From positions 2,872,001 through 2,936,000 of the forward strand of contig NZ_OY776488.1 of NCBI RefSeq assembly GCF_963675635.1: a stretch of 64,000 nt of DNA. The letters run 5' to 3'. Each line of letters opens with the position of its first letter. Position 1 is the first letter of the stretch. The notes under the pieces were generated by a model. The model saw only the letters and a list, made by a program, of their open reading frames with translations, was not told where the DNA came from and did no database searches. This DNA is from an uncultured Pseudodesulfovibrio sp. GTDB taxonomy: Bacteria; Desulfobacterota; Desulfovibrionia; Desulfovibrionales; Desulfovibrionaceae. This document shows positions 29,043-62,426 of the stretch, in pieces. The position numbers and the translations under genes are program-made.

Positions 29043-29148
29043 GGTGTATAATTGTTTACTTGCCTGAATGAATGATTCGTGTCGATCGGACACAAAAAGA
29101 CGCGGCAGGTGGTACCCTGTCGCGTCTGAAAGTTCCTTGGTGCGGAGG

Positions 29149-57222: not shown

Positions 57223-57259
57223 GTCAGACAGGATTCAATGACATCAGCAGGTGAGACGT

Positions 57260-59863
57260 ATGCCGCCAGATATCCATTTACCACCATCAGCCATTACGCT
57301 GAAAGAGATGAAGGCCGATCTGTGGCGACGGGCAGAAAAGGGGAGTGTGGGTGGTTTTGCCTGGGAATACACTCACCTTGTGGATCAGTATTTTGGTCAG
57401 CGTGTCCAGGAAATCGGTCCGCAGAAATTTTCGTTTGTCCTCGTGGCCGTTGGTGGATATGGTCGTGGCAGACTCTGTCCCGGTTCGGATGTGGATATTC
57501 TGGTGCTATTCAAACGTCGAATTCCCTCTGGAGCCGATGTCTTTGTCCAGAAGCTTCTCTTTCCACTCTGGGATCTTGGTTTTGATCTGGGTCACGGTGT
57601 GCGCACCGTGGCAGATTGTACCTCCTTGGCGAAAAAGAATTTTCAGGTTCTCGCCTCACTTATGGATGCCCGTCCACTGGCTGGAGATGCAGCGGTTTTC
57701 GAATCGTTTCGAGCCACATTCAATACCAAGGTGTTGAAAAATGCCGGTCGCACCTTTGCGGAGAGTCTGCGTGAGCACAATGAAACGCGCCTTGCTCAAT
57801 ATGGTGACGCCTCTGGTATGCTTGAGCCTGAACTCAAAAACGGGCTGGGTGGGTTGCGTGATGGACAGCAGGTGGTCTGGCTGAGTCGCGTTCTTGAAGC
57901 TCTGGAGATTGCTCCGGTCTTTCTCCCTGAGGAGCTGAACAGGCTGCGCGACGATCAGGCGTTTCTCAACAGGGTGCGGACAGCTCTGCATCTCGCGGCG
58001 GGGCGCAAGAATGACCGGCTCTTTTTTGATCTTCAGCCAGCGACTTCTCAACTCATGGGTTTTTCTTCCGTGAAAGCGTCTCCTGAAGACAGGGGGCGCG
58101 GGGTGGAATTTTTCCTTTCTCGGCTCCATCAGGCCATGACCCGTATCAAAACCATGCGTAAGGCACTATTTCAAGAACGTTTTGTCAACAGTGATCCACG
58201 CTCTCTTCCCGTTGTGGCATTGCCATCCGTTCAGGCCACCCCCGAAGGATTGTGCTTCAAGGAACCGGCAAAAGTGACGGCCGACATCGTGCTTGAAGCC
58301 TTTCTCGAATCCGCACGGATCGGTATCCCCCTGACCTGGGGCGCGCGTCGGCTTGTCAGGAACAATCCGGGCCGGTTTGCCGCCCGCCTTATTGATCGTT
58401 CGGAAACGCTGTCTTCGCTGGTCAGCATCTTCAGGGCACCGCATGGGAGTGTGGCCTGTGAAGGGTTGCTTGAAACTCGGTTGCTTCCGGCGATTTTTCC
58501 CGAGTTCGGTGATGTTGAATTCCTCATACAATTCAATGATTACCACGTCCATCCTGTTGGCCGACACACCATGAACACTGTGTCCCTGCTCGCTGGATTT
58601 GTCGCGGATGGTACAGGGTGGGCCGGAGAAATGGCGTCGCGTGTGAAGGATACAGACGGTCTTGTCCTTGCCGGATTCTTTCACGATCTGGGCAAGGGTG
58701 AGCCGAATCACTCCCTGGCAGGCGCTGCGTTGGCACGGGATGTTCTGGAACGATATGGATGTAATGCAGCGCGAACCGATGAGGTGGCTTTTCTGGTTGA
58801 GCATCACCTTTTGTTGCCAAAAACAGCGACCAGACGCGATCTGTCTGATGAGCGAGTGGCGGCAGAAGTCGCTGCGACCGTGGGTTCCGTGCAACGTCTG
58901 GATATGCTGCAACTGTTGTCGTTGGCTGATTCCATGGCTACAGGCCCCCGGGCTTGGAACAGTTGGACACAATCCTTGTTTTCGGAGTTATATTTCAAGG
59001 TCGCCAATTTATTGCAGCACGGGCCGTTTGCGAGGCCTGACGCGGCGAGGCGGTTGAATGAAACCCGTCAGAAAGTGCTTGAAGTGACATCAGGGTTGGA
59101 TGCCGAATTTGTTGCCGCTGCCGTAGACGCCATGCCTACCCGTGCGTTGCTGGCATTGGAACCAGCGGTTTTGGGCGCACATATCTCACAAGTAAAGGAG
59201 TTGTGGGATATGGTCGCAGCAGAACGTGTTCGTGCTCTGTCGGGTGAGGGCGACAAAGGAATCAACAGTATTAAAACAGCGCCTGGACGTGTCGCGTTGA
59301 CCACAGAACTGACCATGGCGGCTGTGGATCAACCGGGATTATTTGCCATTATGGCCGGGGCCATCTCCCTGCACGGACTGAATATTCTGGCGGCGGACAT
59401 CTTTACTTGGAAAGATGGAACGGTGGTGGATGTTTTTACTGTCAACGAGCCTAAAGAACGGGTTTATACAGAGGAACTCTGGTTGCGTATAAGCCGAACC
59501 ATCAGTCGTGCCATGATCGGTGAACTGGATCTGGCGGCACGGCTTGAGGCTCGACGCAACTCTCCACTTGTCATTGGGCGAAATGGGCCGAAGCTGGCCC
59601 CACTTGTTTCAGTGAGTAATGCAACGAGCGATTTTCATACCGTCATTGAAATCGCGGCAACAGATCGAATCGGTTTTCTTTTTGATATGGCCCGGACTCT
59701 GGCAGAGTGTGACATATCCATTCGGTTGGCAAAAATCACCACCATCAAGGGGCGGGCTGCCGATGTGTTTCATGTGCTTACAAATGACGGTCAGCGGCTA
59801 CTTGATGAAAACCGAATTGAGACTGTGAAGAAGGCTCTGCTGGCGGCGGCCGCCTGTTCCTGA
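57260..59863 (+). CDS. glnD: GlnD, PII uridylyltransferase/uridylyl-removing enzyme
   Basis: About 867 residues from ATG 57260 (AGGTGAG upstream; a GTG at 57251 is less likely). Nucleotidyltransferase motif GGYGRGRLCPGSDVDILVLF, GlnD/PII helical linker, HD domain (HPVGRHTMNTVSLL; AGFFHDLGKGEPNHS; VEHHLLLPKTA) and two C-terminal ACT domains (VDQPGLFAIMAGAISLHGLN; ATDRIGFLFDMARTLAECD). It uridylylates GlnK in low nitrogen and removes UMP when glutamine binds the ACT domains. Confidence 0.93.
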   Translation: MPPDIHLPPSAITLKEMKADLWRRAEKGSVGGFAWEYTHLVDQYFGQRVQEIGPQKFSFVLVAVGGYGRGRLCPGSDVDILVLFKRRIPSGADVFVQKLLFPLWDLGFDLGHGVRTVADCTSLAKKNFQVLASLMDARPLAGDAAVFESFRATFNTKVLKNAGRTFAESLREHNETRLAQYGDASGMLEPELKNGLGGLRDGQQVVWLSRVLEALEIAPVFLPEELNRLRDDQAFLNRVRTALHLAAGRKNDRLFFDLQPATSQLMGFSSVKASPEDRGRGVEFFLSRLHQAMTRIKTMRKALFQERFVNSDPRSLPVVALPSVQATPEGLCFKEPAKVTADIVLEAFLESARIGIPLTWGARRLVRNNPGRFAARLIDRSETLSSLVSIFRAPHGSVACEGLLETRLLPAIFPEFGDVEFLIQFNDYHVHPVGRHTMNTVSLLAGFVADGTGWAGEMASRVKDTDGLVLAGFFHDLGKGEPNHSLAGAALARDVLERYGCNAARTDEVAFLVEHHLLLPKTATRRDLSDERVAAEVAATVGSVQRLDMLQLLSLADSMATGPRAWNSWTQSLFSELYFKVANLLQHGPFARPDAARRLNETRQKVLEVTSGLDAEFVAAAVDAMPTRALLALEPAVLGAHISQVKELWDMVAAERVRALSGEGDKGINSIKTAPGRVALTTELTMAAVDQPGLFAIMAGAISLHGLNILAADIFTWKDGTVVDVFTVNEPKERVYTEELWLRISRTISRAMIGELDLAARLEARRNSPLVIGRNGPKLAPLVSVSNATSDFHTVIEIAATDRIGFLFDMARTLAECDISIRLAKITTIKGRAADVFHVLTNDGQRLLDENRIETVKKALLAAAACS

Positions 59864-59934
59864 CCGCACGCGTGGCCAAATGAGTCTTTACTTTTTTGGA
59901 CGGAATCGTAGAGTTGAAAAAAAGAGGACTTTTC

Positions 59935-60561
59935 ATGCCCATCAGGATACGTATCTTTTCCGATTTCGTCTGACCGTTCTGTTATGTCGGCACGGGAATT
60001 GTCGACCATCTGAAGAGCGAATTTGATATTGACGACGTATGGGTCCCGCATGAGCTGCACCCGGAAACTCCCATACAGGGGAAGCCCATGACGGAGTTCT
60101 TCAGCCAGTTTGATATCGATCAGGTCGTCACGACCTGCAATCAGCGTGGCAAACCATATGGTCTTGTCTTTCGCGATATGGCATGGTTGAGCAATACCCG
60201 TCGTGCTCTTGAAGCGGCAGAGTATGCCCGGGAGCAAGGTGTTTATCACGCTTTCCATCATGCGGTGTTCAAGGCCTGTTTTACGGACGGAAAGAACCTC
60301 GGTGACATGGGTGTGCTGTTGGACGTGGGAGACTCCTGTGGTTTGAATCGGATGGGACTTCAAGTGTCTCTTGAAGAAAAACGGTTCGCCAAACAGGTCG
60401 ATAAGGGATCGGAATCAGCACGCGCTGTCGGGGTCACCGCCTTGCCGACGTTTATTGTCGAAGGGTTGCCGCCCATAACCGGAGCTGTGCATGAGGATGT
60501 CTTCCGCAAGGCTCTGCAAAAGGTGGTCGACCAAGAAAATGGATCTTTTGAAAGCGAATAA
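59935..60561 (+). CDS. DsbA-like (FrnE-type) selenoprotein with in-frame UGA/Sec
   Basis: About 208 residues, ATG 59935 behind GAGG. The frame continues through TGA 59971-59973 (codon 13). The local reading FSDFV-U-PFCYVG puts Sec where DsbA/FrnE proteins have the first Cys of CPFC; C16 is the resolving Cys. A 7-bp stem-loop follows. Downstream ORF: KPMTEFFSQFDIDQVV, then GLPPITGAVHEDVFRKAL typical of the DsbA/2-hydroxychromene-isomerase fold. Without recoding only 60088-60561 would be called, missing the active site. Thiol-disulfide oxidoreductase role is inferred. Adjacent to asparaginase. Confidence 0.88.
59986..60006 (+). promoter_or_regulatory. Candidate bacterial SECIS element
   Basis: GUCGGCA (59986-59992) pairs with UGUCGAC (60000-60006) through one G-U pair, giving a 7-bp stem with loop CGGGAAU. 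The loop begins 19 nt after UGA, in the range for SelB-binding SECIS, and holds GG. Confidence 0.75.
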
Positions 60562-60590: not shown

Positions 60591-61586
60591 ATGCCTAAAG
60601 TTTCTGAAATAGCGGTGTTTTTTACAGGTGGGACTATTGGAATGTCGCCTGTTGCAGGTGCGCCGGGAGTGGCTCCGGGTGGTAACTTTGATCAGCTCCT
60701 CAAGCAGCTTGTTCCCCAAGGTGAGAACATCGCCCTGCGCCCTGTCTTGTGGTCGGACAAACCCAGTCCGCACATGACGCCGTCCGACATGTTTCAGCTT
60801 GCCAGAGATGTTGAGGCGACATTGAATGAAGAGAGTGTGATAGGAGCCATTGTCCTGCACGGAACCGACACACTGGTCGAAACTGCCTACATGTGTGATC
60901 TGGTCATTGATTCGGACAAGCCGATAATTTTGACCGGGTCCATGCGTTACTATTCCGAGTCCGGGTATGATGGTATCAGAAATCTGACTAATGGTATCCG
61001 CGCGTGCATGCTTCCCCTGCCATCGGGGGTGGGAGCCTGCATCTTGATGACGGATCGTATTTTTTCGGCCCGTGAAGCGGTCAAAGTCAACTCGTTGAAT
61101 GTGGACGCGTTCGAGTCTAGAGAAGCGGGTGTCGTCGGGTACGTGGCCGGTGAGTCCGTTGTGTTGGCAAGGCGGCACTCCACACCCAATCGGCGGCGCA
61201 AGATCAGCCCGGAATCCATTGATGCACACGTGGCACTTATTACTGCTTATACGGGAATGGACCGATCATTTATCGATCATGCTAAAAGTGTTGGTATGAA
61301 AGGGATTGTCATTGAGGGTTTTGGTGCAGGGAATATTCCGCCTGCTGCTGTGTCCGGCATTGAAGACTGCCTGAATGAAGGTGTCCCCGTGGTGTTGGCA
61401 ACCCGGTGTATCGAAGGTGGTGTCTGGCCTATATACGGCTACCCTGGCGGTGGGGCTGATCTGGAAAGCAGAGGGGTTATCTCCTGCGGAAGATTGGGAG
61501 GACCTAAAGCGAGAATCCGACTTATGTGCGCTCTGGGACTGACTTCCAATATGGATGAAATTCGCAGGCTGTTTGAGGAATTGTAA
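60591..61586 (+). CDS. L-asparaginase
   Basis: 331 residues. Two nucleophile motifs: VFFTGGTIGMSP (first Thr near residue 12) and IVLHGTDTLVETAYM (second Thr near 90), plus ILTGSMRYYSES. The region around residues 200-260 and the end are typical of the family. It hydrolyses asparagine to aspartate and ammonia. Whether it is type I or II is not clear; no signal peptide, so probably cytoplasmic. It follows the selenoprotein by 30 nt and may be co-transcribed. Confidence 0.92.
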   Translation: MPKVSEIAVFFTGGTIGMSPVAGAPGVAPGGNFDQLLKQLVPQGENIALRPVLWSDKPSPHMTPSDMFQLARDVEATLNEESVIGAIVLHGTDTLVETAYMCDLVIDSDKPIILTGSMRYYSESGYDGIRNLTNGIRACMLPLPSGVGACILMTDRIFSAREAVKVNSLNVDAFESREAGVVGYVAGESVVLARRHSTPNRRRKISPESIDAHVALITAYTGMDRSFIDHAKSVGMKGIVIEGFGAGNIPPAAVSGIEDCLNEGVPVVLATRCIEGGVWPIYGYPGGGADLESRGVISCGRLGGPKARIRLMCALGLTSNMDEIRRLFEEL

Positions 61587-61841
61587 TTTTCAGCTGCTGC
61601 CATGTCTTTTTGACGCCTTTCCGTTTTGGAGAGGCGTTTTTTTTGTAATGCGGGTTTGCAAACGCGTTGAGTTCAAAACCATGTCAAGACGCTTTTCTAT
61701 GCCAATCGCATGCTCTTTTATGACATTCGTTGACATTTCTGACTGTTGGCAAAAAACCGTGGTAGCTTTGTCACGCTTACGGCCTGAGTGCCGGGCAAAC
61801 GGGATGTGGTGCTTCAACGAATGAAAAGAGAGGTAGTGACA

Positions 61842-62426
61842 ATGGCGACGAGTGTAATTGAAATCTGCAACAACGCCCTGCTTGATCTGGGTGAAGATGT
61901 CATCATGTCCCTTGGCGACAATTCAAAGGCGGCAGGCCTGTGCAATCATCGCTGGCCCGCAGTACGAGACGCAGTGCTGCGTTCCCATCCCTGGAATTGT
62001 GCCATGGCGCAGGCCGAACTGGCTGCCGGGGCAACGGCCCCCTTGTGGCGATGGGAGTACAAGTACAATCTGCCAGTGGATTTCCTGCGGATCATTCAGG
62101 TGGTGGGGGCGAATGGTGAAGAGGTCCGGGATTGGGAAATCCAGTCCAATATTATTTTGTGTGACGAGGAAGCGCCTTTGTTTATCTCCTATGTGCGCTG
62201 CGAAGCAGACCCCAAGAAGTATGATTCCCTGCTGTCTGAGGCCCTGTCGGCGCGTATGGCTGCGACTCTAGCCTATCCGCTTTCCGGGTCCACATCGTTG
62301 GCCCAGACGTATTGGAAGGTCTATCAGGACAAGTTGACTGAAGCTCGAGGGGTGGATGCGCGTGAAGGCGTACCTGAATCCGTCATTTCCAAGAACTGGC
62401 TCGGGGCCAAGCTCGGGGCAAGATAG
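61842..62426 (+). CDS. T7-like tail tubular protein A/adaptor
   Basis: About 194 residues from MATSVIEICNNALLDLGED, with AGAGG eight bases upstream. It shows NNALLDLGED, CNHRWPAVRDAVLRSHPWN, WRWEYKYNLPVDFLRIIQV, and EALSARMAATLAYPLSG, the pattern of podovirus tail tubular/head-tail adaptor proteins. No other phage gene is adjacent; flanks are asparaginase and rsmB. It likely belongs to a dispersed particle gene set. A terminator follows directly. Confidence 0.78.
   Translation: MATSVIEICNNALLDLGEDVIMSLGDNSKAAGLCNHRWPAVRDAVLRSHPWNCAMAQAELAAGATAPLWRWEYKYNLPVDFLRIIQVVGANGEEVRDWEIQSNIILCDEEAPLFISYVRCEADPKKYDSLLSEALSARMAATLAYPLSGSTSLAQTYWKVYQDKLTEARGVDAREGVPESVISKNWLGAKLGAR

Follow-up and report, generated by a model that had tools for sequence, protein, structure and literature searches.

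A DsbA/FrnE-like gene of an uncultured Pseudodesulfovibrio with a probable selenocysteine codon at its active site, and the Sec/Cys alternation of its relatives

Described selenoprotein and FrnE relatives

DsbA-like selenoproteins of COG2761 with the active-site motif UxxC (U represents selenocysteine, x any amino acid) were reported in 2005 as nine sequences from the Sargasso Sea, and the family was described there together with SECIS elements (PMC1088965). A DSBA-like selenoprotein is recorded for Desulfovibrio desulfuricans, among others, in a 2006 paper, where the balance between loss and gain of selenocysteine (Sec) is already a published theme (PMC1794560), while the GOS data contain 'DsbA 1' with the motif UxxC and the figure 63 (PMC2398784). 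A listing of 2016 gives 41 and 45, taken here as organisms and sequences (PMC5029168), and two Asgard sequences of the DsbA-like selenoprotein family are also reported (PMC11227280). A 2026 review places 'DsbA-like protein form 1' (PF01323, UxxC) among the selenoproteins 'predicted with high confidence', outside the experimentally verified group (PMC13188914). Dsb is not mentioned in the available portion of the deep-Sep paper (PMC12013277).

The gene analysed here was proposed from its letters, with the remark that DsbA-like selenoproteins are known in some bacteria, which the literature since 2005 bears out for the COG2761/PF01323 family with UxxC. Compared by description, it has the same domain and motif as that family, for which SECIS elements are likewise described, with no difference in kind, and it shares the family by name with the protein listed for D. 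desulfuricans, also a sulfate reducer (PMC1794560). It fits as another member of a family first recognised from its sequences some twenty years ago, which is an expected result and one useful for annotation. Among the NCBIfam models that have a Sec form, the closest is NF041057 (Rcas_1661 family thioredoxin-like (seleno)lipoprotein, a DsbG-like selenoprotein). It describes a different family: the protein scores 29 bits over residues 77–196 only, where the cut-off is 190, and membership is rejected.

The best match by both sequence and fold is FrnE of Deinococcus radiodurans (PDB 5cnw, 5co3, 5cp1 and 5xwh), which is predicted to be a cytoplasmic thiol oxidoreductase, acts in vitro as a disulfide isomerase and reduces insulin, and gives a cadmium- and diamide-sensitive phenotype when mutated (PMC8945050). 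A role in regeneration has been proposed for its C-terminal CX4C motif, which occurs in many FrnE proteins but not in those of S. roseofulvus and D. maricopensis (PMC8945050), so that CX4C does not define the whole FrnE subfamily. The active site CP(W/F)C is common to FrnE and the protein studied here, except that FrnE has cysteine where the latter would have Sec.

The gene, its product and the decoding machinery

The window, i.e. the whole stretch of 64,000 nucleotides that was analysed, carries the DsbA/FrnE-like gene at 59935–60561 on the forward strand, from an ATG at 59935 to a TAA ending at 60561, with 208 codons open when the in-frame TGA at 59971–59973 is read as Sec. The read-through product of 208 residues starts with MPIRIRIFSDFVUPFC, where UPFC (residues 13–16) places the putative Sec13 at the first position of the UxxC motif. 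An AGAGGA at 59923–59928 is a probable ribosome binding site, in keeping with the sequence-only reading, which had called the site good. That reading had also put the TGA exactly on the first Cys of a CxxC active site, and the alignment with FrnE sets it on the first Cys of CPWC. The resolving Cys and the downstream motifs, which it had considered intact, are so: Cys16 (TGT, 59980–59982) is invariant in a 12-row alignment and protein conservation is kept past the TGA. Besides C16, the invariant positions of this alignment include S9, D10, C/U13, P14, G19, W36, E40, H42 and P43, as well as Pro171 (60445–60447), the expected cis-Pro, which we take from the thioredoxin fold to face the active site.

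The read-through protein matches PF01323 (DSBA) with 89.9 bits over residues 5–195 (gathering score 25.6) and reaches no model at cut-off in NCBIfam, which is used in NCBI annotation. The solved FrnE of D. radiodurans is matched by sequence over residues 3–198 (E-value of the PDB FrnE chains 1.8e-16), and SCO1869 of Streptomyces coelicolor is matched by sequence as well. An AlphaFold2 model, with Cys substituted for Sec, has a mean pLDDT of 93.9, and in fold it comes closest to the D. radiodurans FrnE structures (TM 0.83–0.89; 5cp1 0.89) and SCO1869 (3gl5, 0.86), followed by kappa-class glutathione transferases. The model places a strand at residues 3–9 and a helix at residues 14–26, so that the FrnE fold has its active site close to the N-terminus; the first strand begins at residue 3 and leaves no room for a signal peptide, which points to a cytoplasmic enzyme. 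The C-terminal CX4C, proposed to serve regeneration in D. radiodurans FrnE, is absent from the 208-residue protein, and its regeneration should therefore differ from that of D. radiodurans FrnE.

The host genome, a single contig of 3.52 Mb, encodes the complete selenocysteine machinery, with selB at 383 bits (curated cut-off 242), selA at 609 bits (curated cut-off 268), tRNA-Sec (selC) at 81.8 bits (gathering score 47) and selD at 335 bits (curated cut-off 125). All four genes named by the sequence-only reading, which had taken an absence of selB or selC as the mark of a plain nonsense mutation, are thus present above their cut-offs. Of the 36 genomes of the genus, 34 have selB above cut-off, and the two misses are drafts of 82% completeness. 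The selD match of the host itself (contig C1, 2543451–2544380) contains one in-frame TGA and is probably a selenoprotein; besides the DsbA/FrnE-like gene, the genome therefore probably encodes one or more further selenoproteins.

The hairpin downstream of the UGA

Downstream of the UGA lies a candidate SECIS apical hairpin (59986–60006, forward strand) with a 7-bp stem (59986–59992 paired with 60000–60006) and the loop CGGGAAU (59993–59999). The stem begins 12 nt and the loop 19 nt past the TGA; the 7-bp stem and the GG in its loop had been described correctly beforehand, while the 19 nt of spacing, which had been assigned to the stem, separate the TGA from the loop. Published criteria for bacterial SECIS elements comprise a loop of 3–9 nt, a stem of 4–16 bp, a G in the first two loop positions, a UGA-to-loop distance of 16–37 nt and a minimum free energy of at most -7.5 (PMC13188914). 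The 7-bp stem, the 7-nt loop, the 19 nt and the -8.1 kcal/mol of the hairpin alone agree with all of these values.

Agreement with these criteria is, however, not rare by chance: among 2523 TGAs of the window in any frame, 174 are followed by a rule-fitting stem of at least 7 bp and 3 by one of the exact geometry. The RNA folding that had been suggested as a check does return the hairpin, while its stability does not clearly exceed that of shuffled sequences. A 50-nt fold reaches -15.2 kcal/mol (z -1.42; 23 of 200 shuffles as good), the 27-nt hairpin has a z of -1.56 (18 of 200 as good), and a 40-nt fold has a z of +0.34 (118 of 200 as good). Single-sequence stability is therefore rejected as proof of the element, since both the shuffles and the window TGA counts are unremarkable. 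A search of the whole window with Rfam gives nothing at the gathering score, from which we take no evidence against a SECIS.

The comparison of relatives, rather than the stability of one sequence, carries the SECIS claim. In the 17 Sec rows of the genus (the 25 genus rows were used after removal of G320, a near-copy of G321), codon +6 after the UGA is GGC in 17/17 and codon +10 is GTC in 17/17, codon +5 is only GTC or ATC, and the wobble base within the loop (+8) varies. Synonymous codon identity in these rows is 0.79 over codons +5 to +11, against 0.49 before and 0.45 after. The seven Cys rows of the genus are relaxed at codons +5 to +7, and over the whole stretch they show a small contrast (0.68 against 0.60–0.61).

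Pairing in the stem register 15–21/29–35, counted over 49 Sec rows, amounts to 93%, against 15–54% for alternative register starts, save one at 81%. In this latter register the UGA-proximal codons pair with the loop region, and minimum energy favours it in some rows; it may compete with the SECIS hairpin. Changes on both sides of a pair are seen in the same 49 rows, where at pair 18–32 A-U replaces G-C in nine rows and U-A replaces it in one, and at pair 20–30 U-A replaces C-G in nine. For either pair the rows changed on both sides belong to one supported clade (eight placed there by the tree, which does not include G167), so the nine rows represent few events. A change from A-U to G-C at pair 21–29 occurs in G128 and G331, both of the genus.

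Covariation within the 24 near Sec rows alone is judged thin, five of the seven stem pairs being invariant there, and the wider set of 49 rows gave more. In a shuffle control on the 24 rows, the paired percentage is reached by 1 of 500 shuffles and the covariation score by 3 of 500, while the covarying cells are reached by 26, the number of covarying pairs by 70 and the number of pair types by 461 of 500. Slid versions of the stem pair in 15–57% of the cells, against 95.5% for the stem itself. The six inner stem pairs are kept in 24/24 Sec rows of the subfamily and in 2/9 near Cys rows, a count that excludes the six rows outside the subfamily (G204, G206, G166, G240, G210 and G007). Codon freezing, the preferred register, the both-side changes and the damage in Cys rows together indicate, on the comparative record, evolutionary constraint on the SECIS.

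Selenocysteine and cysteine in relatives

Homologues of the protein are patchily distributed. In the family sample, 35 of 149 genomes match at an E-value of 0.001, many of the matches being weak and partial; a 12-row profile matches, at 1e-12, 54 of the 348 class genomes and 25 of the 36 genus genomes, with no match in the other 11 of the 36, and 91 of 395 genomes of the phylum sample at 1e-15. At the active-site codon the 54 class genomes, taken by the best match of each genome only, contain 28 TGA and 26 Cys codons and no other residue; the unrelated residues at codon 13 that the sequence-only reading had named as contrary evidence thus occur in none of them. This tally comprises 39 loci read by a motif that requires TGA or Cys before Pro (27 TGA, 12 Cys), one locus read as TGA by eye (L165 of G167) and 14 more distant loci read without any motif, all of one other genus and all Cys (14/14). 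The motif is passed by 39 of 40 class loci, L165 being the sole failure, and by 29 of 29 phylum loci. The genus loci have 18 TGA and 7 Cys (n = 25), and the further phylum loci, from the best-scoring 29 of the 91 matched genomes, have 21 TGA and 8 Cys. This alternation between TGA and Cys goes beyond chance, unlike the stem taken alone. With Cys in 7 of the 25 gene-bearing genus genomes and no match in 11 of the 36, Sec, and even the gene itself, is dispensable in relatives.

A broader pattern scan yields 80 named loci (39 TGT, 34 TGC and 7 TGA), which are motif-picked and make no fair census; the single pattern used contained CPFC, so that Cys forms are favoured. One of the seven TGA loci (L122) is a motif mis-hit, and the six plausible forms that remain (L082, L083, L084, L088, L092 and L101) have TGA at the same FrnE-like active-site position, within UPWC or UPFC. 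Five of these are in Chloroflexi- or Dormiibacterota-labelled genomes and one is in Rhodospirillales.

A TGA lies one base from TGC or TGT, and Cys stands at this codon in 26 of the 54 class genomes, so that a plain nonsense mutation (a pseudogene) or a Cys codon misread in sequencing has to be weighed; it is rejected as extremely improbable, since the TGA recurs in independent genomes (28 of 54) across the genus, other genera of the family and other families, while the protein stays conserved behind it and the genome holds the full Sec machinery. The real product could instead start at the ATG at 60088, which opens a clean ORF of 157 residues, without the active site. The sequence-only reading expected standard callers to report this short gene, and without Sec an ORF finder does give 157 residues at 60088–60561 in the same frame. 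Such a restart is nonetheless very unlikely to give the real product, for the residues upstream of 60088 are conserved in the 12 rows (the set from S9 to P43), and the predicted fold uses the strand and helix that would be lost, an FrnE without which is unlikely to be stable.

Some read-through is possible at any UGA, and UGAC is a weak stop context, so a near-cognate or suppressor tRNA might insert another amino acid and the enzyme would be no selenoprotein. This account deserves hardly any credence, given that the UGA occupies the position of the catalytic Cys, that nothing but Cys alternates with it in the 54 genomes, that a SECIS-like hairpin accompanies it and is damaged in 7 of the 9 near Cys forms, and that selB is so widespread in the genus (34/36). 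The locus is, on comparative grounds, very probably a functional selenoprotein gene for an FrnE-type oxidoreductase, whose UGA is decoded through SelB and the hairpin. Ribosomes would decode UGA 13 as selenocysteine, with SelB docking on the hairpin, 13 to 33 nt past the UGA, and supplying Sec-tRNA-Sec. The product would be a thiol-disulfide oxidoreductase of the FrnE type (DsbA fold), located in the cytoplasm and having the active site U-P-F-C. The selenolate of Sec13 would act as the nucleophile attacking substrate disulfides, in the reductase or isomerase direction, Cys16 would resolve the intermediate, and a thioredoxin-type donor would presumably reduce the spent enzyme. Where UGA is taken as a stop, gene callers drop the catalytic end of this DsbA/FrnE-like enzyme, and by extension mis-annotation of the gene is probable in its relatives as well.

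Changes between Sec and Cys are repeated in the protein trees, with at least 7 changes, 6 of them forced by well-supported branches, in a tree of 39 rows and 14 changes, 8 forced, in a tree of 78 rows. Within the genus, two well-supported cases are G327 (Cys), sister to G128 (Sec), and the Cys clade G317/G319/G329/G337, which has the Sec pair G332/G340 as its sister; two more cases are possible in G318 and G333. All seven Cys-form genomes of the genus have selB, so the loss of Sec is not simply a loss of SelB. It is likely that this one genus has undergone several switches from Sec to Cys (two well supported, up to four) with selB retained, and that hairpins persist at varied stages of decay, also in G129 outside the genus; the direction of the switches is deduced from how the rows nest rather than from a rooted test. 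If so, the genus forms a natural series in which to ask what makes an enzyme keep or lose Sec while the machinery stays. Its natural Sec and Cys versions, with selB in the genomes of both, would offer a clean comparison of selenium with sulfur in one active site. The locus of G129 (L015) has a Cys codon (TGC) together with a hairpin that retains the six inner pairs, and its two sisters in the tree have Sec; its sequence suggests a probable recent change from Sec to Cys.

An L-asparaginase gene (60591–61586, forward strand; PF00710/PF17763) begins 29 nt downstream of the selenoprotein gene stop and stands beside it in 24 of the 25 genus loci, and co-transcription of the two is plausible, while a functional link is only putative. 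Upstream lies a GlnD-like uridylyltransferase gene (57251–59863, forward strand; by Pfam), the C-terminal part of which is next to the selenoprotein gene in 13 of these 25 loci. Neither L-asparaginase nor GlnD is found within the reach of the search, about 1500 bases on each side, at 14 other loci. Elsewhere in the window, a loose scan picked an in-frame TGA at 29127 (forward strand) in a CxxU motif (CRVU), with a possible 8-bp stem and about 80 open codons after it, which is likely due to chance. The region 61788–62426 (forward strand), flanked by the asparaginase gene and by one with NusB/RsmB domains, encodes a 212-residue protein that has no Pfam hit and matches PHROG 394 (phage tail protein) at an E-value of 6.5e-52, and this protein may be part of a prophage remnant.
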